IMG/VR virus record: IMGVR_UViG_3300035664_000040
Location: 1 to 36,471 of that record
Source of the DNA: a virus
DNA length: 36,471 nucleotides
Direction: 5' to 3' (one strand)
The position numbers and the translations under genes were made by a program. How positions within the stretch are numbered: position 1 is the first letter of the stretch; the number at the start of each line of letters is the position of its first letter. Under the pieces are notes generated by a model, which ran no database searches, had not been told where the DNA came from, and was given only the letters and a program-made list of their open reading frames with translations. Positions 3,990 to 36,471 of this stretch are shown here, one piece after another.

Positions 3990-4424
3990 TCACGCCACGC
4001 CACCTCGTCTCCAAGCCAACGTCGTTTCGTCTGTCTCGCCACGCCGCTCGGCATAGTGCCGCTCACGGCACTGCCGGGCCCGCTCCGCAATCTCCTCGGG
4101 CGTCGGATCCGCCACCAGCGTCACTTCAGCCCGTGGCCGCTTGGGCAGCCCGTGCCTCTGCCGCAGCGTGTTCAGCGTGGTTAGAGACACGCCCATCCGC
4201 AGGGCGATGTCGGGCGTCTCCATCTCGCTGTACCACAGCTGGTGCAGCAGCGGCACGTCGATCGTCCGGCGCTGGCCAGGCTGACGCTTGGCCCATCCGA
4301 AACGCCTGGCTGCGACGGCAATGCTGGCCTCGCTGCACCCCAAGCGGGACGCAATCTCACCGTTACGCATGCCGCTGTCACGCAGCCGCTTCATCTCGGT
4401 GTAGTCGATGCGGTGTGCCATCAT
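3990..4424 (-). CDS. Double helix-turn-helix DNA-binding protein
   Basis: A protein of about 144 aa starting at one of two adjacent ATGs (4424 or 4421) directly after GGAGGACGC; the first overlaps the DnaN stop in an ATGA. It carries two HTH-like segments: MKRLRDSGMRNGEIASRLGC followed by SEASIAVAARRFGW (near residues 10-43), and LLHQLWYSEMETPDIALRMG followed by VSLTTLNTLRQRHGL (about 58-92). Each resembles the Hin/sigma-70 region 4 type of HTH. The C-terminus is charged and helical. It may be a regulator of early genes or a replication accessory factor; it follows the clamp gene directly. Confidence 0.75.
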   Translation of the reverse strand: MMAHRIDYTEMKRLRDSGMRNGEIASRLGCSEASIAVAARRFGWAKRQPGQRRTIDVPLLHQLWYSEMETPDIALRMGVSLTTLNTLRQRHGLPKRPRAEVTLVADPTPEEIAERARQCRERHYAERRGETDETTLAWRRGGVA

Positions 4425-5524
4425 GCGTCCTCCGCCAGCGGCATGATGACGCCACGGTACTCGCCGCACGACAGCGTGACCGCACCGCCAGGCCCGGTCG
4501 CATGGATCGAGACGTTCGGCTCCTCGTCGGCCGGCAGGCCCTGCAGGTAGTCACGCACGAAGGCCGGGTCGAGTTTGACTTTGCACGCCGTCCCGGCCTG
4601 CACCACCGAGCACTTCGCCTTGCTTTCGCCGTACTCGCTCGAGCGGGCCGTGAGCGTCAGCGTCTCGCCGAAGTCGTACGTGACGCCCTTGCTCTGCTCG
4701 CTGGCCACGACGGCCGCAGCCCTGGTCGCCGACAGCAGCTCCTCGCGCTCCACGACGTGCGGCTCAGTGCTGGCCTCGGGGAACACGTCACGCCACCGGG
4801 GGAAGCGGCCGTCCACGATGCGAGCCGTGAGCACGCCGCCGTCGAACGTGAAGACCACGTCCGACTTCGTCGCCTCGATCTGCACCGAGCCCTCGCTGCG
4901 TTCGCTGAGCGTTGCAGCGATGCGAGCCGCCACGGCCGGCACGAGCGTCTGCGAGTCGTCCACCGCCTGGTCCGTCTCCGTCTGCACCGCCGACAGCCGC
5001 CGGCCGTCCGTACCCACGAACGTCGGATCCCCACCAGTCACGTCGATGAGCACCGCACCCAGGGCGTAGCGGCTGGACTCGTTGTCCGTGGCGTAGGACA
5101 CGGCACGCACGGCACGCACGAACTGATCCGCCGGCAGGCGGCACACGGGCGTGGCGTCCACCGGCTCCCACGTCGGGAACTCGGCCACGTCCTCAGTGGG
5201 CAAATCCCACTTTCCCCTGCCGCACTTGATGGTGACGGTGCTGCCCTTCGGCGTGAGCGTCACTTCGTCGTCGTACTTGCAGGCCCGCAGGATGGCCGTG
5301 AGCCTGTCGGCCGGCAGCAGCATCGGCTCGCACTGCTCGCCGATCTCACGGTCGATGCGGATCTCAAGATCCGTCCCGGTGATGAGCCCGTCGCCGATGC
5401 GGACGTTCCGCAGAATCGGCTTCGGGCCGCGCGGGCTCACCGCCCTGGTCACGTCGTTCAGTGCCGCCAGCAGCGTGCCGGCTCCTATCGTCAGCCCCGC
5501 CCGCTCCTTCGTTGCCGTCGCCAT
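4421..5524 (-). CDS. dnaN: DNA polymerase III beta subunit (sliding clamp)
   Basis: A 367-aa protein, the usual length of bacterial DnaN. Recognisable landmarks are SPRGPKPILRNVRI early in domain 1, ADQFVRAVRAVSYATDNESSR with the YALGAVLID strand at the start of domain 2, VGTDGRRLSAVQT, RFPRWRDVFPE in the centre, and the C-terminal strand YRGVIMPLAEDA that matches the conserved VIMPM end of beta clamps. Clamps encircle DNA and tether polymerase and repair factors. No polymerase or clamp loader is encoded in this genome, so it would have to work with host Pol III or with phage proteins carrying clamp-binding motifs. The ATG at 5524 lies just after the stop of a small membrane ORF. Confidence 0.93.
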   Translation of the reverse strand: MATATKERAGLTIGAGTLLAALNDVTRAVSPRGPKPILRNVRIGDGLITGTDLEIRIDREIGEQCEPMLLPADRLTAILRACKYDDEVTLTPKGSTVTIKCGRGKWDLPTEDVAEFPTWEPVDATPVCRLPADQFVRAVRAVSYATDNESSRYALGAVLIDVTGGDPTFVGTDGRRLSAVQTETDQAVDDSQTLVPAVAARIAATLSERSEGSVQIEATKSDVVFTFDGGVLTARIVDGRFPRWRDVFPEASTEPHVVEREELLSATRAAAVVASEQSKGVTYDFGETLTLTARSSEYGESKAKCSVVQAGTACKVKLDPAFVRDYLQGLPADEEPNVSIHATGPGGAVTLSCGEYRGVIMPLAEDA

Positions 5525-27888: not shown

Positions 27889-28059
27889 CTACGCACCCGG
27901 CCTCTTGCAGAACCTCATTTGAGAAACTGTTGTTTTCACAAACGCCACCGCACGAGCACCGCACCGTGGGCAACGCAGATACCGCTGCCGTTCGTCGCCG
28001 CAGGCACGACTAGAACGGCACCGCAACTTCTCGCCGCAGGTGCAGCGGGCCTCAGACAT
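27889..28059 (-). CDS. Small zinc-ribbon protein
   Basis: A 56-aa ORF that overlaps the protease stop by 8 nt (start ATG 28059). It begins MSEARCTCGEKLRCRSSRAC and continues GDERQRYLRCPRCGARAVAF, giving C-x-C and C-P-x-C-G pairs spaced as in small zinc ribbons; an additional Cys is near the end (MRFCKRPGA). Phage transcription activators of the Ogr/Delta type have a similar metal knuckle, but the fit is only general. Placement between protease and major capsid genes is unusual. Confidence 0.68.
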   Translation of the reverse strand: MSEARCTCGEKLRCRSSRACGDERQRYLRCPRCGARAVAFVKTTVSQMRFCKRPGA

Positions 28060-28687
28060 TGCGGAGCCTCAGCATGGCGGCCCACGCCTGGGCGACGCCA
28101 CGCATGGCCGAACGCACGGCAGGCGTGGCCGCTGGCTCGCCCTGTGACGCCAGCCACGCTTCGTAAGAACGCATGGCCACGCCAGCACTCGTCTGCGGGT
28201 ACGCCGGCACCAGGACCGGGCCAACGTCGTACAGGCCCGAAACCTCTCGGATCTGCCGCACGGCCTTGCCGTCCTCGCCGGTACGAAACGACTCGTGCTT
28301 CGGGTCCACGGTGAAGGCGAACGACGAGCCACGCACGTCACGACGCTGGATGAGCTCGAGCACGTCGGCTCGGCTCACGGGCGGCGTCACCACGTACCGC
28401 AGCCCCTTCTCGTCGCTGGACAACTCCAGCGTGCCAGACGACGTGCGGCCCAGCACGATGTTGCTGTCGTGGTTGAAGAGTGCGACCACGTCGCCCTTGC
28501 CACGCTGCCGGCCGAGAATCTTGTCGAACGCACCCGGCAGGATCTCTTCCTTGAACCCGCCCAGGTCGAGGCTCAGCCGGTTGTACACGGCGGCGTACCC
28601 CACAATGGCGGCCCGGCCGTCGGCACGGCTCTCGACCACGAGCTCGTTGTCGTCCTCAAAGGCGAAGTCCCGGCGTTCAATCTCCAT
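28052..28687 (-). CDS. HK97-family prohead protease
   Basis: A 211-aa protein of peptidase family U35/S78. AAIVGYAAVYNRLSLDLGGF, KEEILPGAFDKILGR, then GDVVALFNHDSNIVLGRTSS with catalytic His73, and VRGSSFAFTVDP with Ser121 or Ser122. The enzyme assembles inside the procapsid and removes the capsid delta domain. The ATG at 28687 overlaps the portal stop by 11 nt. A short Ala-rich C-terminal tail follows YEAWLASQGEPAATPAVRS. Confidence 0.95.
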   Translation of the reverse strand: MEIERRDFAFEDDNELVVESRADGRAAIVGYAAVYNRLSLDLGGFKEEILPGAFDKILGRQRGKGDVVALFNHDSNIVLGRTSSGTLELSSDEKGLRYVVTPPVSRADVLELIQRRDVRGSSFAFTVDPKHESFRTGEDGKAVRQIREVSGLYDVGPVLVPAYPQTSAGVAMRSYEAWLASQGEPAATPAVRSAMRGVAQAWAAMLRLRNV

Positions 28688-29972
28688 CGGTCTGCTCCTC
28701 TGTTTCGGCGTCGTCCTCGAGCTCGTCGGCCGGGCTGTCCTCGGCTTCGACCACGGGCGGCTCGGCCACCGGCTCCGGTGCAGGCGGCTCCTCGCCGGCC
28801 TTGTCCAACGTGGTCATGTTCAGCTGAATGAAGTGCTTGTCTCCCTCGGGGCCGAGCGGGTTCAAGTTCTCCATCTCACGCACTTCGTTGATGCTCATCC
28901 ACCCGTTCTGGATCGCCGAGACGTAGTAGGCCGAGCGGCTCGCGTGATCGCCACGCAGCAGGCCGCTGACGTTGTGCTCGGCAAAGTACGTCTCGTCGTC
29001 GTCGATCAGGTCACGGGCGATGGCCGCCTCCCACCGCTTGAGATGGGGCAGCAGACAGTGCTGCACGAACTCGGTGCCCTGCACTTCGATGTTCGAGTAC
29101 GTGCTGCGGGTGAGATCCTGAATCATGTGCGGCGGCACACGAAACGCCCGGCAGATCTCGATGACTTGGTATTGGCGTGTCTCAAGGAACTGGGCCGCCT
29201 CGTTGCTCTGCGAGAGCTCGTGGGCCTTCACGCCGTTGGGCAGGATCGCAGTGCGGTGGGCTCGATCCGCACCACGGTGCATCCGCTCCCACTGTTCCCG
29301 CAGACGCTCGGCCGCCTCGACGGGGATCGGGTTGTCGCTCTCCAGCACTATGCCGGGCCGGGCACCGTTGCCGAAGTAGGTGGCCCCGTGGGCCTCCAAC
29401 GCCTGGGCCAGGCCGATGGCGTTCTGGAACAGCCGGTACGTCGGGATCGGGTGGATGCCGTCGCTGGTCGTGTACCGCAGGGCAAAGATCTGCTCCTGGC
29501 GGTACACCGTCTGCCGGCCGTCCGGCTCACGGTAGAGGTAGCGAATCTGGCCGTTCTCTAGCCGCTCCTCCTCCATGCGTGACGAGTGCAGCGGCCAGAG
29601 CTCGACGACCGTGCCACGGGGGCCGGGCCGCTTCTCGGCGTACGACGCGCCGTAGTGCAGGTAGAGCCCGGTCATCCAATCCCGGAACTCCTGAGCCGTC
29701 TGCCACGGATTCGGCTGCGTGTGCAGCAGGCGGTACAGAGGATGCTCGGGCACCTTACGCTTACCGCCGGTCGTCACCCGCTCGTACAGGTGCAGCGGCA
29801 GAGACGACACCGAATCCGAAATGACACGGATGCACGCCGTGTAGGCCGAGCAGGCCATCGACGTGTCGGCGTTCACCCGGATGCCCGAAGACGTGCGGCC
29901 GCCGCCCATCTCGCTCCAGTCGATGCCACGGAGCTCGTGCATCCGGTAGTCGTTGGTGGCTGTCTCGCTCAT
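28677..29972 (-). CDS. HK97-type portal protein
   Basis: A 431-aa protein, the size of HK97 gp3-like portals. SMACSAYTACIRVISDSVSS, LPLHLYERVTTGGKRKVPEH, PLYRLLHTQPNPWQTAQEFR and DWMTGLYLHYGASYAEKRPG are the classic wing/stem motifs, then LWPLHSSRM, RAFRVPPHMIQDLTRSTYSN (the conserved P-P-H-M-I-x-D) and HCLLPHLKRWEAAIARDLID. The last 40 residues are acidic and disordered. The ATG at 29972 overlaps the TerL stop in an ATGA; longer in-frame forms starting near 30299 are shadows of terL. Confidence 0.95.
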   Translation of the reverse strand: MSETATNDYRMHELRGIDWSEMGGGRTSSGIRVNADTSMACSAYTACIRVISDSVSSLPLHLYERVTTGGKRKVPEHPLYRLLHTQPNPWQTAQEFRDWMTGLYLHYGASYAEKRPGPRGTVVELWPLHSSRMEEERLENGQIRYLYREPDGRQTVYRQEQIFALRYTTSDGIHPIPTYRLFQNAIGLAQALEAHGATYFGNGARPGIVLESDNPIPVEAAERLREQWERMHRGADRAHRTAILPNGVKAHELSQSNEAAQFLETRQYQVIEICRAFRVPPHMIQDLTRSTYSNIEVQGTEFVQHCLLPHLKRWEAAIARDLIDDDETYFAEHNVSGLLRGDHASRSAYYVSAIQNGWMSINEVREMENLNPLGPEGDKHFIQLNMTTLDKAGEEPPAPEPVAEPPVVEAEDSPADELEDDAETEEQTDGD

Positions 29973-31516
29973 AGCGTGATGATGTCCCAGGACTGGTCTG
30001 CTGGCTTTGCAGTTGCCGTAGCGTGGAGCCCAAGTGCCATCACGAGGCTCACGATTCCGTCTATCCGCTCCGTTGACTTCTGCTTGCTCGGCTTGATGTT
30101 TCCGGCGTAATCGCTCTGTGTCGCCACGTTCGCCGCCATCCACGACAGCACTGGGTGGCCACCGTGCCGGATCTTTTCCGAGAGCACGAGGTTCTCCAAC
30201 TGCTTTGCAGGGCTCGACATTGAGGCGTAGCCCTGCCCAAATCCTGTCACATTCACCCCATCCCCTTGCAGGGCGGTAGCGAGCATGGTGGCGTTCCATC
30301 TGTCGATACCCACCTGCCGGATGTTGAACTTCTGGGAAAGCTCAAGAATGTCTCGCCGGATCACCTCGTAGTCCGTAACGTTTCCGTCAGTGGTTCGGAT
30401 GTAGCCGTCACGGATCCAGCCGATGTAGTCCACCTTGTCCCGCTGCGTCCGCTCGGCTGCGTTCACCTCGGGCACCCAAAAGTACGGCAGAACGTCGAAG
30501 GTGCCGTCGTCGGCCTGGCTCACGAGCACCAACGCCGACAAGTCCGTGGTGCTGGCCAAGTCGAGCCCGGCGTACCACTCACGCTTCTCGAGCTCGTCAC
30601 GCAGCTGGCCGCCGCACTTCGCCCACGCATCGGGCGACAGCCACCGCACGTCCTGCGTCGTCCACACGTTCAGCCGGTATCGCAAAAAGCTATTGAGCTT
30701 GGACGGCGACTGCTCGGCCTCACGGGCGTCGGCTGCGAACGACTCCACCGTGATCGTCTCGCCCAGCGACGGGTTGGCCTTGTGCCACGTCTTCGGGTCT
30801 TTCCACTCGTCCTCGGGGGAGGCGGCGTAGATGCACCCGAAGAAGGCTGGGTCAACCGTGGGATCTGCAATGCACCGCTCGGCGTAGGCGTGCTGCTCCC
30901 AGCAGATGCTCTTGCGGTCGTAGCCGGCCGTGGTGATCGACAGCAGCAGCGGCGATCGGCGAGCCGCGCCGCCGTACCGGAGGGCGTCCCATAGCCGCCG
31001 GTCACGCTGAGCGTGGAGCTCGTCAAACAGCAGGGCGTGAATGTTTAGCCCCTCGGCCCGGAACGCATCGGCCGACAGTACCCGATAGAACGAGTTGCTG
31101 GCCTTGTGAATGATGGTCTTTCGGCTGTCGATCACCTCAAGGTGCTTGCTGAGAGCCGGCGACGCTCGCACCATCGAAGCCGCCTCACGGTAGATGATGC
31201 CCGCCTGCTCTCGGTCGCAGGCCGCACCGTAGACCTCGGCCCCCGGTTCGGAGTCAAACGCAGTCATGTACAGAGCGATGCCGGCCAGCGTGGTGCTCTT
31301 GCCCTGCTTCTTCGGAAGCTCGATGTACCCAACACGATGCTGGCGGATGCCTTCTGGCGTGAGCCGGCCGAAGAGCTCACGCATGACGTGATGCTGCCAC
31401 GGAAGTAGCTTGAACGGCTTGCCGGCGTTCTGCCCCTTGCTGTGCCGCAGGATGTTCTCGAAGAAGTGCACGACACGGCGGTAACGCCGCTGCCCTTCTT
31501 CGCAGAGATCAGGCAC
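29969..31516 (-). CDS. terL: Terminase large subunit
   Basis: A 515-aa protein if started at GTG 31516, which overlaps the TerS stop by 8 nt; ATG 31570 would add 18 low-complexity Lys/Ser residues lying over the end of terS. It carries the ATPase with IELPKKQGKST (Walker A, 65-75) and HALLFDELHAQ (Walker B, 160-170), a coupling SITTAGYD (193-200), and a nuclease with WYAGLDLASTTD (314-325), QVGIDRW and DGIVSLVMALG. It is of the HK97-type Terminase_1 group, which cleaves DNA and pumps it into proheads. It acts with TerS and the portal. Confidence 0.95.
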   Translation of the reverse strand: MPDLCEEGQRRYRRVVHFFENILRHSKGQNAGKPFKLLPWQHHVMRELFGRLTPEGIRQHRVGYIELPKKQGKSTTLAGIALYMTAFDSEPGAEVYGAACDREQAGIIYREAASMVRASPALSKHLEVIDSRKTIIHKASNSFYRVLSADAFRAEGLNIHALLFDELHAQRDRRLWDALRYGGAARRSPLLLSITTAGYDRKSICWEQHAYAERCIADPTVDPAFFGCIYAASPEDEWKDPKTWHKANPSLGETITVESFAADAREAEQSPSKLNSFLRYRLNVWTTQDVRWLSPDAWAKCGGQLRDELEKREWYAGLDLASTTDLSALVLVSQADDGTFDVLPYFWVPEVNAAERTQRDKVDYIGWIRDGYIRTTDGNVTDYEVIRRDILELSQKFNIRQVGIDRWNATMLATALQGDGVNVTGFGQGYASMSSPAKQLENLVLSEKIRHGGHPVLSWMAANVATQSDYAGNIKPSKQKSTERIDGIVSLVMALGLHATATAKPADQSWDIITL

Positions 31517-31979
31517 CGTGGAGCTTGAAGAACTCTTCGACTTCGTCGGTTGGCTTTTCTTCCTTGGCACCGAGCCGTGTCCTGCTGGTAGGTGTCAGGC
31601 CAAACTCGCCCATTAGCGACGCCTGCAGGCTCACTAATCCACGATACAAGGGCCCGGCCGGGTTGGGCTTTACGCCGCCCAGGTCGGTGTGCATCACCGG
31701 ACCACTGGCCCGGAGCTCCATCAGGCACGCCTGCGTGGCAGCGTACACCTCGCACAAAGTGGCCAACGCCTCGCCGTCAGCAGTCGTCAGCGTGCCGAGG
31801 CCAGACAGGATCGGCACGAACTCGTTCCACTTCTCGACGGCGAGCGGTTCGACCAACAGCCGAGCCGGCATCGGGGGAACGCCCGGCGGTGCCGGCAGAT
31901 CCGGCCGGATCTTTCGCTTGCCACGGTTGCCAGCCAGCCGCTTAGCGGCCTCGGGCATCGGCTTCGGTCCTCGCTTCAT
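31509..31979 (-). CDS. terS: Terminase small subunit (P27 family)
   Basis: A 156-aa protein with KRGPKPMPEAAKRLAGNRGK at the start, LPAPPGVPPMPARLLVEPLA, VEKWNEFVPILSGLGTLTTA and DGEALATLCEVYAATQACLM, which is the P27-type small terminase pattern (G-N-R at the start, P-x-P, W-x-x-x-x-x-L-x-x-x-G-x-L-x-x-x-D). The C-terminal tail is GLTPTSRTRLGAKEEKP..., acidic at the end. ATG 31979 lies 5 nt after TGAGGTGG. It recognises the packaging site, which in related phages lies near this gene. Confidence 0.93.
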   Translation of the reverse strand: MKRGPKPMPEAAKRLAGNRGKRKIRPDLPAPPGVPPMPARLLVEPLAVEKWNEFVPILSGLGTLTTADGEALATLCEVYAATQACLMELRASGPVMHTDLGGVKPNPAGPLYRGLVSLQASLMGEFGLTPTSRTRLGAKEEKPTDEVEEFFKLHGA

Positions 31980-32830: not shown

Positions 32831-33112
32831 TTACGGGAGCGGGCGGTGCGTCGCCTGCCTGTACTCGTCTGCGGTGATCTCGGTGATGGCACCGCTGCCT
32901 AGCAGCTGGGGCATCATGGCTGAGGCGGGTTCCCATTCCAGAAAGAAGTCCTTGAGAGCCACGACGATCCGGCCGTCGTCGTCCCGCAGGGCATCCGCCT
33001 CATGACGCATGCAGGTGTCCGTGCCGTTGGTGTCAGGCAGATTCCACGCAGCGTCGAGCATCAAGCGAATCTGCTCATAGACGCCCGGCGTTTCTTCACG
33101 GAAGTACCTCAC
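32831..33112 (-). CDS. Hypothetical protein next to LamG gene
   Basis: A 93-aa protein from GTG 33112, which overlaps the LamG stop in a GTGA and lies 8 nt after GGGGG; the longer GTG 33127 is less likely. It is acidic: RYFREETPGVYEQIRLMLDA, AWNLPDTNGTDTCMRHEADA, LRDDDGRIVVALKDFFLEWE, then PASAMMPQLLGSGAITEITA. It may be a chaperone or companion of the LamG-like protein. No family recognised. Confidence 0.72.
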   Translation of the reverse strand: MRYFREETPGVYEQIRLMLDAAWNLPDTNGTDTCMRHEADALRDDDGRIVVALKDFFLEWEPASAMMPQLLGSGAITEITADEYRQATHRPLP

Positions 33113-33819
33113 GCTGCGATCCCCCACTTGCGAGACAGATAGCGTCTGACAGTACTGATCTCGGTGGCCGTCATGGCACGATTCCAGATCAGCACCTCGC
33201 CGATGCGGCCAATGAAACTGGCACCAGCGCCAGCACTGTTTGCAATGGCGATTTTGTTCGGCGTGAACGACAGCGCTCCCGTGAACGACGTGCCTGACAC
33301 GCCGTTGGCAACGCAGGACAGCGATGTGCCGTTGTGATGCGACTCCGCAATGACTCCCGTGGACTGCGTCACGCTCACGCCAGAGCGAAACGCTCCTGAG
33401 AAATAGCTGCCGATTTGGAATGCGCCCGGGTTGGGCAGGAGCAAGGCGATGTAGTTAGCGCTTTCGGCGTCGCTCTCCTGAACGACGATTCGACCGAAGC
33501 CGGATGTGGCGTCTACTTGGCACACAGCGAACGTGCTCTGAGCCGTGATCGAGTACGAGAGGCCAGACGCCAACAGCAGGTCGCCCTGGTCGAACACGAA
33601 GGCTGTCCTGCCGTTGATCGTCGAGAGCAGCGGCTGCTGCGATCCAACGGCCTGCGTGGCGGCCCTGTTGGCTACCTTGTCCCGCCACGACGACACCCCA
33701 GTGGCCACCGTGTAGGTGCTGGAGTCCACGGCATCCCACCATGCGTACAGGCCAGCGATGCTGCGGGGATTGAATCCACCGACACGGGGCCGCAGCGTCC
33801 TCGGGCTCATGGGGCTCAT
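33109..33819 (-). CDS. LamG/concanavalin-like virion or adhesin protein
   Basis: A 236-aa protein beginning GFNPRSIAGLYAWWDAVDSS and ending FIGRIGEVLIWNRAMTATEI with STVRRYLSRKWGI. This start (the SIAGLxAWWDA motif) and end (IGEVLIWNRAxTxxEI) are the hallmark of LamG/ConA-like jelly-roll domains in phage tail fibres and bacterial surface proteins. A receptor-binding or attachment role is likely. The ATG at 33819 overlaps the preceding stop in an ATGA. No trimerisation or peptidase segment is seen. Confidence 0.88.
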   Translation of the reverse strand: MSPMSPRTLRPRVGGFNPRSIAGLYAWWDAVDSSTYTVATGVSSWRDKVANRAATQAVGSQQPLLSTINGRTAFVFDQGDLLLASGLSYSITAQSTFAVCQVDATSGFGRIVVQESDAESANYIALLLPNPGAFQIGSYFSGAFRSGVSVTQSTGVIAESHHNGTSLSCVANGVSGTSFTGALSFTPNKIAIANSAGAGASFIGRIGEVLIWNRAMTATEISTVRRYLSRKWGIAA

Positions 33820-34049
33820 GGGTTGTCTCGCATGTGCTTCATCTCGTACAGCAGCTTGGTCTGCTCGGTGACGGCCTTGCTGATCTCGCTTTGCGTCTCG
33901 CTCAGGCTGCGGACGAACACGCGATGCTCCTCGACGAGCGGGATCAGCACGTCATTGCGAAGCACCCAGCCAGCGGCCAGGGCCACGACTACGCTGAAAC
34001 CGTAGTCACGCAGGGCCGTGTAAAGCGTCTCCTTGGTGGCCTCAGTCAC
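33816..34049 (-). CDS. Small membrane protein, holin candidate
   Basis: A 77-aa protein from GTG 34049, which overlaps the upstream stop in a GTGA and lies 7 nt after GGAGG. One hydrophobic segment (YGFSVVVALAAGWVLRNDVL, about 14-33) is preceded by a charged N-terminus and followed by a helical tail (HRVFVRSLSETQSEISKAVT, EQTKLLYEMKHMRDN). Size, single TM and charged C-terminus fit a class III-like holin or a related r1-like lysis regulator. It lies next to another small membrane protein and a papain-like peptidase. Confidence 0.68.
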   Translation of the reverse strand: MTEATKETLYTALRDYGFSVVVALAAGWVLRNDVLIPLVEEHRVFVRSLSETQSEISKAVTEQTKLLYEMKHMRDNP

Positions 34050-34366
34050 GCCAGGGCCTCCAGCATCTCGACTCGGTTCTCCAGCCAGCGGCGAATCAGG
34101 ATTTTCACGATCTCGCTGATAATGGCCGCCAAGATAATGCTGGCGAAGAAGCCCATGCCGTACTCGGCACGCTCCTGCCGCTCGATGCTCTTGGCCAGGT
34201 GCTGGCCCACCACGGCGGTCTGCTGCGGATCGCACTGGTACAGCACGGGCACGGGCCACTTGCGGATGGCACGGGCAATGAGGCGTTCGCCACGCTTCCG
34301 GCCGAGCAGATAGCGGCTGGCCGGGAGCTCAGCCCAAACGGCGTCGATGAGTTGCTGGCGGGTCAT
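34046..34366 (-). CDS. Membrane-anchored small protein
   Basis: A 106-aa protein from ATG 34366, which overlaps the upstream stop in an ATGA. The N-terminal part is soluble and basic (LIDAVWAELPASRYLLGRKR, GERLIARAIRKWPVPVLYQC), and one TM helix is near the C-terminus (GFFASIILAAIISEIVKILI, about 71-90), ending in RRWLENRVEMLEALA. It may be a holin, pinholin or anchor that works with the small membrane protein downstream. No family recognised. Confidence 0.68.
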   Translation of the reverse strand: MTRQQLIDAVWAELPASRYLLGRKRGERLIARAIRKWPVPVLYQCDPQQTAVVGQHLAKSIERQERAEYGMGFFASIILAAIISEIVKILIRRWLENRVEMLEALA

Positions 34367-34629
34367 TTCTTGGCCTTTTGCTTGTTGCACTCAGGGCATG
34401 GCACCTTCACGGTGCCGTCACCAAGCCAGCCGCCGCCGGGCGGATTCTTTGCACCGCACGTAGAGCACTTGTCGCTCGCAGGCGTCGGCTCAGGGCTGGG
34501 CGTGGCCCGCATCTTCACCAGGGCACGGGCCGTCTCGGCAGCCATCTCGGCGGTCAACGACGCATCATCAGCCGGCAGCGTCACGACGCATCCCACCAGC
34601 ACGATGCACAGAGCCACAAAGAATCTCAC
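34363..34629 (-). CDS. Lipoprotein with zinc-knuckle
   Basis: An 88-aa protein from GTG 34629. A signal peptide (MRFFVALCIVLVGCVV) has the lipobox LVGC, with Cys14 the likely lipidated residue. A Thr/Ala/Glu helix follows, then a zinc-knuckle-like end: CSTCGAKNPPGGG, then VPCPECNKQKAKK (C-x-x-C and C-x-x-C pairs). A lipidated, exported metal-knuckle protein is unusual; it may be a spanin-like or superinfection-related envelope protein. It is coupled to the peptidase gene and to the membrane proteins. Confidence 0.7.
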   Translation of the reverse strand: MRFFVALCIVLVGCVVTLPADDASLTAEMAAETARALVKMRATPSPEPTPASDKCSTCGAKNPPGGGWLGDGTVKVPCPECNKQKAKK

Positions 34630-35624
34630 AGCACGTCCCCCGTCCAGTTGGGCAACTGCTGGGCAGGCCAGCCGTTTACGCCAGAGAAAGCGATTGAGTA
34701 GCGGCCGCTGATGTCAGACCAGCGGGCCCAGAAAGACCCGTGCGGGATCTCTAGCGTCGTCCCCATGACGGCCCTCGGCCCCGTGTTCCACTTGCCCCAC
34801 GAGTTGGCCACGAGCACGAGCGGCTGGCCATACGCCTTGCGGGTTTCGTCTCGGTCGTCCACGCCCAAGTACGCCATGGCGTGGTACCAGACGCCGCCGG
34901 ATCGCTTGGACACGCCGTTGGTGTCTCGCGTGTTGATGAACGCTTCCGAGCCGCAGCTGCTGATGCAGTAGCCGTTGGCGATCAGATCCCGCACTTCCTC
35001 AAACGTGCGGGCCCGTGTGGCCGTGCGAACGAGATGCTGCCGGCCGAGCTCGAGCACGCTGGCTGGCGGCTTTGTTGCTCCCCACTTGCCGGCCACCTTG
35101 CCGTCGTACTTTGTCAGGTCGATGCCGAGGGCCTCGTACCGCTTACGCACCCACAGCCCCGACTCTTTCAGCACCACTTCGGCGGCGTGGTCGCAACTCC
35201 AACCGTCGCCGCCGTGCTGGCGAAACCAGTAGATGGCCTCAGTGCTGAGCACGCCGTCACGCCGGGCAGCGTCTGCAAGATCAGGAGCACCTTCCACAAG
35301 GCCGGTGACTTCGTCGGGCTTACTAGCGGCGATCTCGCAGGCGAGCGTGCCCAGGCAAGCGTTTCGGGTCGAGTGGCTGACGCAGTCGCCACGGGTCTGG
35401 GCCGATGCCGGCAGGCAGTCAGGAAACACCCGCTGCATGATCTCAAACGGTGCCCACAGTTTGCCCGCACCGCTGCCCACCAGCCCGTACCGTCGGCACG
35501 TCGTGCCCCCGTCCGGTGCCTGCCCCTGCATCAGCAGGTACTGCGTGAGCCGCTCAGACGCAGCCGGGTCGGCGTAGACGCCGACGAGGCCAGCCAGGTA
35601 TTCGGCGTTGGCATCCCAGGGCAT
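34626..35624 (-). CDS. Papain-like (C1-type) cysteine peptidase
   Basis: A 332-aa protein whose core matches papain-type peptidases: QTRGDCVSHSTRNACLGTLA (oxyanion Gln76 and nucleophile Cys81 in place of the usual Q-G-x-C-G-S-C-W), VWYHAMAYLGVDDR (His248), and LVLVANSWGKWNTG (Asn274 followed by SWG, as in papain). All three catalytic residues are placed in the expected order. No signal peptide or wall-binding domain is visible. ATG 35624 follows AAGGAGTGATCG. A phage enzyme of this class could cut a protein in the envelope or a virion precursor; in cells with little or no peptidoglycan it might replace a standard endolysin. Confidence 0.85.
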   Translation of the reverse strand: MPWDANAEYLAGLVGVYADPAASERLTQYLLMQGQAPDGGTTCRRYGLVGSGAGKLWAPFEIMQRVFPDCLPASAQTRGDCVSHSTRNACLGTLACEIAASKPDEVTGLVEGAPDLADAARRDGVLSTEAIYWFRQHGGDGWSCDHAAEVVLKESGLWVRKRYEALGIDLTKYDGKVAGKWGATKPPASVLELGRQHLVRTATRARTFEEVRDLIANGYCISSCGSEAFINTRDTNGVSKRSGGVWYHAMAYLGVDDRDETRKAYGQPLVLVANSWGKWNTGPRAVMGTTLEIPHGSFWARWSDISGRYSIAFSGVNGWPAQQLPNWTGDVL

Positions 35625-35627
35625 CGA

Positions 35628-36239
35628 TCACTCCTTGGCCGTGCCGGCCCATGCGATTGCCTTGTAGAGCTCGACGACCTTGGCCCGTGTCTCCACGTCG
35701 ATCGGGCGGGCGTCGAGGCTGAGCGTGTCGCCCATAGCCTTCTCGACGGCCTGGCGGAGGCCGGCATATGTGCCTGGCTTGTTCTCGCCGATTCGCCGCC
35801 ACCCGATGTCGAGAGCGAGCGTGGTAAACATCCGCAGGGCACGAGTGTCGGTCAGCACCACTTCGGTGCCGAGCTCGTCGCCGGCCACGACCGTGGCGGC
35901 TTTGCTCCACAGGTTGGCCCACAGCATGCGATCCCCAAGCGGTGCGGCCTTGAGGGCGTCGGCAATCGGCTGGACGGTGGCACGCATCGCAGGGCTCGGG
36001 GCATCGACAGTGACGACGGGCACAGCCGGCGTGCTCGGCAGGCTCGGCATCGGCACCTTGCCCCAAGCCGCAGCGATTAAGAGGGCCGCTGCGGCGATTC
36101 GGCCGGCGAGGGCTCCGTGGGCCTTGGCGGCTTGGGCGGCCTGAGAGACGTACCCAGCGATTTGCTGCCGGTACGGCGCAGCGAGGAAAGCAACTGCCGC
36201 CACCACGGCGGCGGTGCGTACAAGTGACTCATGGCTCAC
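35628..36239 (-). CDS. Membrane-associated Ala-rich hypothetical protein
   Basis: A 203-aa protein from GTG 36239, which overlaps the upstream stop in a GTGA. Two hydrophobic segments are near the N-terminus: VRTAAVVAAVAFLAAPYR (about 7-24) and GRIAAAALLIAAAWGKVP (about 46-63), followed by a Pro-rich link and a soluble domain: ATVQPIADALKAAPLGDRML, WANLWSKAATVVAGDELGTE, VVLTDTRALRMFTTLALDIG. The soluble part is helical and ends LYKAIAWAGTAKE. It is the gene before the peptidase; a membrane partner of the peptidase or a tail-associated protein are possibilities. Confidence 0.75.
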   Translation of the reverse strand: MSHESLVRTAAVVAAVAFLAAPYRQQIAGYVSQAAQAAKAHGALAGRIAAAALLIAAAWGKVPMPSLPSTPAVPVVTVDAPSPAMRATVQPIADALKAAPLGDRMLWANLWSKAATVVAGDELGTEVVLTDTRALRMFTTLALDIGWRRIGENKPGTYAGLRQAVEKAMGDTLSLDARPIDVETRAKVVELYKAIAWAGTAKE

Positions 36240-36471
36240 CGGACGGCCTCCACCTGCTGCATCACCCAACGCACCAGATCCTCGCCAGCCGGGGTCTTGA
36301 GCACGGCGGCCAGCTTGCTCACCAGCTGGTCGTCCACCTTGGCGTGCGTCTGTGCGGCCAGCCACTCGACGGCGTCGGCCACGATCAGCGAGCGGCGGTA
36401 CGGGTCGGGCTCAGCCATGAACCGCTGGCCGTAGCCGATGAGCGGGGCCCATCGCTGCAGCAGCATGAGCG
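36236..36471 (-). CDS. Junction-spanning hypothetical protein, C-terminal part
   Basis: This is the 3' part of the gene that begins at 243 on the other side of the join; it enters the window at 36471 in frame (LMLLQRWAPLIGYGQRF). The C-terminus, TPAGEDLVRWVMQQVEAVR, is followed by a TGA at 36236 that overlaps the next start in a GTGA. Joined, the protein has about 100 residues. It is rich in helices, with no recognised family. The first internal ATG in this window (36466) is not the true start. Confidence 0.75.
   Translation of the reverse strand, partial: LMLLQRWAPLIGYGQRFMAEPDPYRRSLIVADAVEWLAAQTHAKVDDQLVSKLAAVLKTPAGEDLVRWVMQQVEAVR
36345..36471. repeat. 127-bp terminal direct repeat, right copy
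   Basis: Identical to 50-176. Upstream of it (36296-36344) the sequence is 78% identical to 1-49 (11 differences in 49 bases), all in the same reading frame and conservative at protein level. The right-hand version continues into the intact gene end, so it is the version that belongs to the assembled circle. Confidence 0.9.

Follow-up and report, generated by a model that had tools for sequence, protein, structure and literature searches.

The window analysed here is the whole of IMG/VR virus record IMGVR_UViG_3300035664_000040 (36,471 bp), and the region of interest is a block of five coupled genes on its minus strand, read from 36239 to 33816 in the order gB, peptidase, gD, gE and gF. The gB gene (35628–36239, 203 amino acids) encodes a membrane-anchored protein, followed by a cysteine peptidase with a predicted papain-like (C1A) fold (34626–35624, 332 amino acids), a predicted exported lipoprotein, gD (34363–34629, 88 amino acids), and two small membrane proteins, gE (34046–34366, 106 amino acids) and gF (33816–34049, 77 amino acids). 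A 3-nt gap separates gB from the peptidase gene, and the other three junctions are 4-nt overlaps (GTGA, ATGA and GTGA). The initial annotation, made from the sequence alone, had described these five genes as coupled, and the limits that it gave coincide to the base with the gB start and the gF stop.

The peptidase of the window has no signal peptide and no transmembrane segment. The codons of its catalytic residues lie at 35399–35397 (Gln76), 35384–35382 (Cys81), 34883–34881 (His248) and 34805–34803 (Asn274). All 59 homologues have Gln76, Cys81, His248 and Ser275, and 57 of them have Asn274. The other two, both from prophages (G326 and G416; L143 and L145), have Gln in place of the catalytic Asn of the NSWG motif. 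An AlphaFold2 model with 49 diverse homologues as input had a predicted local distance difference test score (pLDDT) of 89.5 and a predicted template modelling score of 0.91; it superseded a first model from 11 sequences, most of them near-identical, that was unusable (pLDDT 41.9). A structure search, one of the checks that had been proposed, was run with this model, and Foldseek matched xylellain (3ois, E 1.5e-9), many cathepsin B structures, cruzain and Der p 1. There were 60 matches to PDB structures at E ≤ 0.001, and the best 50 of the 60 were all C1-type cysteine proteases. The ratio of non-synonymous to synonymous substitution between the peptidase and its relatives is ca. 0.04–0.22. Judged by its modelled fold, its conserved residues and the selection on it, the peptidase is real and functional-looking, and the complete Cys-His-Asn peptidase of the initial annotation is borne out.

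The family is not recognized by standard profiles. No Pfam family matched the window peptidase at E ≤ 1, there was no significant PHROG match, and a profile search of PDB sequences returned a single, non-significant match (3ioq, E 0.1). Because the fold is matched and the Pfam C1 profile is not, the peptidase is classed as having a papain-like fold, as modelled, rather than as a member of Pfam C1. The C71 profile was also unmatched in the Pfam scan, and the third catalytic residue is Asn, not Asp. Several prophage members carry an N-terminal transmembrane segment of their own. In one viral relative (L075, 6645–8834) the peptidase carries an intein with a LAGLIDADG endonuclease (Intein_splicing E 1.4e-12, LAGLIDADG_3 E 2.3e-9), inserted immediately before the catalytic Cys. 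Inteins favour the conserved active sites of important proteins.

Besides one N-terminal transmembrane segment that passes the hydropathy threshold, the gB protein has a further hydrophobic stretch rich in alanine, and these are followed by a C-terminal domain of ca. 120 amino acids. Its family is present in 68 of 83 peptidase loci, directly before the peptidase in most of those; in some marine relatives gB comes after the peptidase rather than before. All 16 viral contigs with a close TerL (87–99% identity) and enough upstream DNA encode a papain-like peptidase at the homologous place, and these peptidases are of a different subfamily from that of the window. When the window is compared with one relative (L170), TerL (99% identity), gE (99%), gF (96%) and the N-terminal part of gB (88%) are close, but the C-terminal part of gB (48%), the peptidase (30%) and gD (40%) are much less alike. 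Across 17 genomes, in which the identity pairs are not independent, the Spearman correlation of peptidase identity was 0.63 with the C-terminal part of gB and 0.56 with gD, compared to 0.30 with TerL and 0.17 with gE. Since the three are exchanged together, and peptidase identity tracks the C-terminal part of gB and gD over TerL, the outer (C-terminal) domain of gB, the peptidase and gD would so form one functional unit, obligatory yet swapped. A pattern of obligatory yet exchanged genes is common for lysis genes and modules.

The product of gD, whose GTG start lies in the overlap with the peptidase stop, has a lipobox (LVGC) and a zinc-ribbon-like CxxC...GDG...CPxC motif. A pattern search found an exported cysteine-rich CxxC...GDG...CxxC protein after the peptidase in 57 of 72 loci, and inspection by eye added another 13, against a background of 1 in 2,498 distant same-strand open reading frames (ORFs). 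In two loci (L080 and L097) the downstream protein is a fusion of a cysteine-rich part with thioredoxin (Thioredoxin_2 E 4.5e-12 and 1.4e-10). The protein adjacent to the peptidase is also a thioredoxin fusion in prophage G326, and is or contains a thioredoxin in prophages G148, G360 and G388, with the motifs WCGPC, WCPYC, WCPHC or WCRAC in this set of four. Other loci (L075, L076, G416 and G221) have CxxC domains that are not scored by Pfam. That proteins of other architecture but like chemistry take the place of gD speaks for extracytoplasmic thiol exchange as one part of what the cassette does. As a small lipoprotein with prolines, gD has a spanin-like trait, but a reading of gB and gD as Rz/Rz1-like spanins is judged less likely, as the conserved CxxC motif and the thioredoxin fusions fit a redox role better.

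The order past gD is usually gE, then either a transmembrane/coiled-coil protein like gF or a short holin-like protein. The gE protein has one transmembrane segment (residues 69–87) followed by an RRWLE motif, and its relatives show the pattern YG..(transmembrane)..WWLER. The gF protein has an N-terminal transmembrane segment (residues 18–36) and a charged, probably coiled-coil tail; by this architecture it is a holin candidate. In relatives of the L090 and L096 type, the short cassette protein matches holin families (phrog_9987 E 4.1e-5, phrog_297 E 0.002, phrog_4712 E 0.0038). Two other relatives (L087 and L088) encode a Transgly_assoc membrane protein (PF04226 E 2.8e-7) downstream of the cassette, at the position that holin-like genes take in other phages.

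Whole-proteome Pfam and PHROG scans of the window listed the top 25 families, and the unassigned proteins were rescanned singly. No known endolysin was found among the families listed or in the single-protein rescans, in agreement with the claim that no endolysin is recognizable in the genome; a canonical endolysin elsewhere, which had been named as the finding that would refute a protease-based system, did not turn up in these profile searches of the window. Whole-record searches for six lysin families were extended to 20–21 viral relatives, ten of them of 192–205 kb. Five families (Amidase_2, Phage_lysozyme, Peptidase_M15_3, SLT and NLPC_P60) were absent from the window and from these relatives. 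The sixth, M23, gave signals in long ORFs of four relatives of ca. 200 kb only; these were below the Pfam cut-off and were not counted as endolysins.

Relatives of the peptidase are encoded by 396 IMG/VR contigs, from small phages to phages of ca. 200 kb, and even very distant phages mostly retain the order of the cassette. Searches with three different members found the peptidase in none of 50,697 deposited phage records. Thirteen matches were found in 84,980 species genomes, seven of them in planctomycete metagenome-assembled genomes (MAGs). In even samples, with seed genomes included, the peptidase was found in 13 of 392 genomes of Planctomycetota, 2 of 395 of Bacteroidota and 1 of 400 of Chloroflexota. 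Several of the planctomycete matches are on contigs of 0.9–7.8 Mb, where the gene for a terminase (G148, G360) or for a major head protein (G416, G310) lies ca. 20 kb or less from the cassette. Because the cassette and terminase or capsid genes lie together on planctomycete contigs of megabase size, cassette-bearing prophages reside in planctomycete chromosomes. The viral relatives also appear to infect planctomycetes, and the best explanation of the window is a siphovirus-like phage infecting Planctomycetota.

Published descriptions of the planctomycete envelope call it protein-rich, cysteine-rich and disulfide-stabilised (PMC3035269, PMC8567305), cysteine-rich YTV proteins occur in wall preparations, and most peptidoglycan synthesis genes are missing in most Planctomycetales (PMC8567305). 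Planctomycetes do have peptidoglycan – sacculi with diaminopimelic acid and lysozyme sensitivity have been shown for several species, and lysozyme with ethylenediaminetetraacetic acid (EDTA) disrupts the cells (PMC4432640). The initial annotation had guessed at a host with a protein-rich or thin-peptidoglycan envelope; planctomycetes come close to this guess, but given their lysozyme-sensitive peptidoglycan (PMC4432640) a protein target is uncertain.

The block is best read as a lysis (envelope-disruption) cassette in which a papain-like peptidase takes the place of the endolysin, aided by thiol chemistry outside the cytoplasm; we give this reading a probability of about 0.58. The earlier proposal of protease-based lysis or envelope remodelling is supported in part and now stands considerably stronger: the absence of a recognized endolysin, the conserved module and the holin-like genes of some relatives are in favour, while lysis itself is something that we infer, along with proteolysis, its substrate, the export route, the role of a holin, the order of events and the role of gB. 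The peptidase, without a signal peptide, would accumulate in the cytoplasm and be released late by the small membrane protein gF, possibly with gE. The inner-membrane-anchored gB, with a C-terminal domain matched to the peptidase, would receive or control it. The lipoprotein gD would have been exported earlier, supplying thiol chemistry outside the cytoplasm: gD, or the thioredoxin in its place, may keep the peptidase Cys reduced, open disulfide cross-links in cysteine-rich envelope proteins, or both, and the peptidase would then cut the proteins so opened. For a wall pictured as cysteine-rich and disulfide-stabilised, a peptidase paired with a reductant is a direct fit. The phage lysins PeiW and PeiP need a reducing agent (PMC4592898), so gD may alternatively or additionally keep the peptidase active. 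An envelope protein is judged about twice as likely as a murein peptide to be the substrate.

Several observations weigh against this reading. Lysozyme with EDTA disrupts planctomycetes, which do contain peptidoglycan (PMC4432640), so lysis may take more than a protease. The gF of the window matched no holin family in the Pfam and PHROG scans, and its gD lacks a thioredoxin domain. Release through a holin does not account for every member of the family, because several prophage peptidases have their own transmembrane segment and some marine relatives have gB after the peptidase. Capsid and tail-like genes surround the cassette in two prophages (G310 and G348). Short contigs with the cassette have been placed in non-planctomycete MAGs (L096 and L098 in Lokiarchaeota, L095 and L099 in Flavobacteria, L097 in SAR202), and are probably mis-binned viral contigs. 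Finally, the whole-proteome negatives apply among the families listed, and the search of the relatives, though strong, is incomplete, with six families rather than all endolysin families.

The same cassette could serve lysis with a different substrate, if the peptidase is an unrecognized papain-type endolysin that cuts peptidoglycan peptides and the thiol partner only keeps its catalytic Cys reduced. The diaminopimelic acid and lysozyme sensitivity of planctomycete sacculi (PMC4432640) would suit such an enzyme. Endolysins often have papain-superfamily folds (PMC10318531), the structural neighbours in BFVD include entries with the names N-acetylmuramidase or peptidoglycan-binding-like, and PeiW and PeiP are cysteine-peptidase lysins that are active only with a reducing agent (PMC4592898). 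The nearest folds, however, are C1A proteases (xylellain and cathepsin B), not CHAP or NlpC/P60, the NLPC_P60 profile was not matched, and many Planctomycetales lack most peptidoglycan synthesis genes (PMC8567305); we consider a murein-cutting enzyme unlikely.

Two further explanations do without lysis. Membrane proteins, a lipoprotein and a protease would also suit a surface-modifying module that reshapes the envelope of infected or lysogenic cells (for instance in superinfection exclusion or receptor shaving) or acts as a fitness factor of the lysogen, and the cassette is indeed found in prophages, in one of which (G388) the genes around the peptidase have no homologues in the viral loci used for comparison. 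Unlike typical accessory genes, however, the peptidase is obligatory in close relatives (16 of 16) and is found both in ca. 200-kb phages and in small ones, the cassettes of some relatives include a holin-family gene, and no other lysin was found among the families searched, which together make a remodelling module quite improbable. The peptidase might also be a virion or assembly protein, used either as a maturation protease or, on entry, to cut through the envelope at DNA injection. The block is coupled to a LamG gene with a "virion structural protein" PHROG and lies 3 kb from the terminase gene, and the cassette of prophage G310 is near a major head/protease gene. This role is ranked low because the genome encodes a separate S78-type prohead protease (28052–28687, minus strand; PF04586 E 1.1e-39, phrog_80 E 1.2e-45 in the whole-proteome scans), assigned to this gene by its position between the portal and major capsid genes. 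The peptidase is, moreover, exchanged with its membrane and lipoprotein partners and not with the terminase, and the adjoining LamG gene is variable. The initial annotation had named a maturation enzyme in the virion as a result that would count against it; that objection is weakened by the S78 protease and by the location of the block upstream of the terminase, not between portal and capsid, and a virion role is highly improbable.

The nearest known proteins are those of papain family C1A (MEROPS clan CA; xylellain 3ois, cathepsin B), which share the fold (Foldseek E 1.5e-9 to 1e-5) and the oxyanion Gln, Cys, His, and Asn in an NSWG motif. The window peptidase differs from them in its low identity (ca. 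14%), the lack of a Pfam C1 match and of a signal peptide, and its tie to a phage cassette. In arrangement the block resembles the lambda SRRzRz1 genes, which likewise combine coupled small membrane proteins, an enzyme without a signal peptide and a small proline-containing (o-spanin-like) lipoprotein. The lambda lysis cassette is also upstream of the terminase, as the block is here. Compared to such holin-endolysin-spanin cassettes, that of the window has no peptidoglycan hydrolase that was found, pairs a C1A-fold protease with a cysteine-rich or thioredoxin partner, and has in gF only a holin candidate. CHAP and NlpC/P60 endolysins are phage lysis enzymes of the same papain-like superfamily (PMC10318531), but they were not detected in the window by Pfam, and the window peptidase is nearest to true C1A proteases. 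The pseudomurein endoisopeptidases PeiW and PeiP (C71) are likewise phage cysteine peptidases, lysins that act on a non-murein wall and need reducing conditions (PMC4592898). They are of a different family, with a Cys-His-Asp triad and archaeal hosts. We know of no membrane, lipoprotein or thioredoxin partners of PeiW or PeiP.

A more general proposal, which we put forward tentatively and with more doubt than confidence, is that planctomycete phages of 36 to >200 kb lyse their hosts without a peptidoglycan hydrolase: an exported thioredoxin-like or cysteine-rich lipoprotein would open disulfide cross-links in cysteine-rich wall proteins, and the peptidase would cut these proteins. Such a system is undescribed for a bacterial virus, and literature searches found no described lysis system of a planctomycete phage. 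If true, this would be a new class of phage lysis enzyme, for a phylum with a wall that has been under dispute for four decades, and the target cut by the phage would be a direct test of whether protein, peptidoglycan or both keep a planctomycete cell intact. A peptidase family of ca. 400 viral contigs that Pfam and PHROGs do not recognize would then also gain a functional name, and could serve to open planctomycete cells. The breadth of conservation, the redox partner and the exchange as a unit go beyond the initial annotation.

Coupling of the same style extends beyond the block on both sides. Upstream is gA (36236–36466, minus strand), a conserved gene coupled to gB and present in 14 related loci, the complete copy of which spans the contig ends and starts at 243. 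Downstream, coupled to gF, is the LamG/ConA-like gene (33109–33819, minus strand; Laminin_G_3 E 9.7e-8, phrog_10356 virion structural E 4e-13). It possibly encodes a virion structural protein, to judge from these matches, and is probably not part of the cassette, as it varies in relatives. At the same place in L170, L187, L204, L226 and L243, which have near-identical terminases, this LamG/tail-like gene is highly variable, and it is possibly a host-range or receptor-binding module. The gene for the terminase large subunit (29969–31570, minus strand; phrog_9 E 5.4e-161, TerL_ATPase and TerL_nuclease) starts 3.1 kb downstream of the peptidase stop. No exact terminal repeat was found at the ends of the window. 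Because the contig ends overlap by 176 bp (1–176 and 36296–36471; 116 bp exact, the remainder strain variation), the genome is close to complete, either circularly permuted or closed with strain variation. This 36-kb phage also encodes a complete homologue of the DNA polymerase III beta clamp (4421–5524; phrog_947 E 2.3e-56 and Pfam DNA_pol3_beta domains), assigned to this gene from its length.

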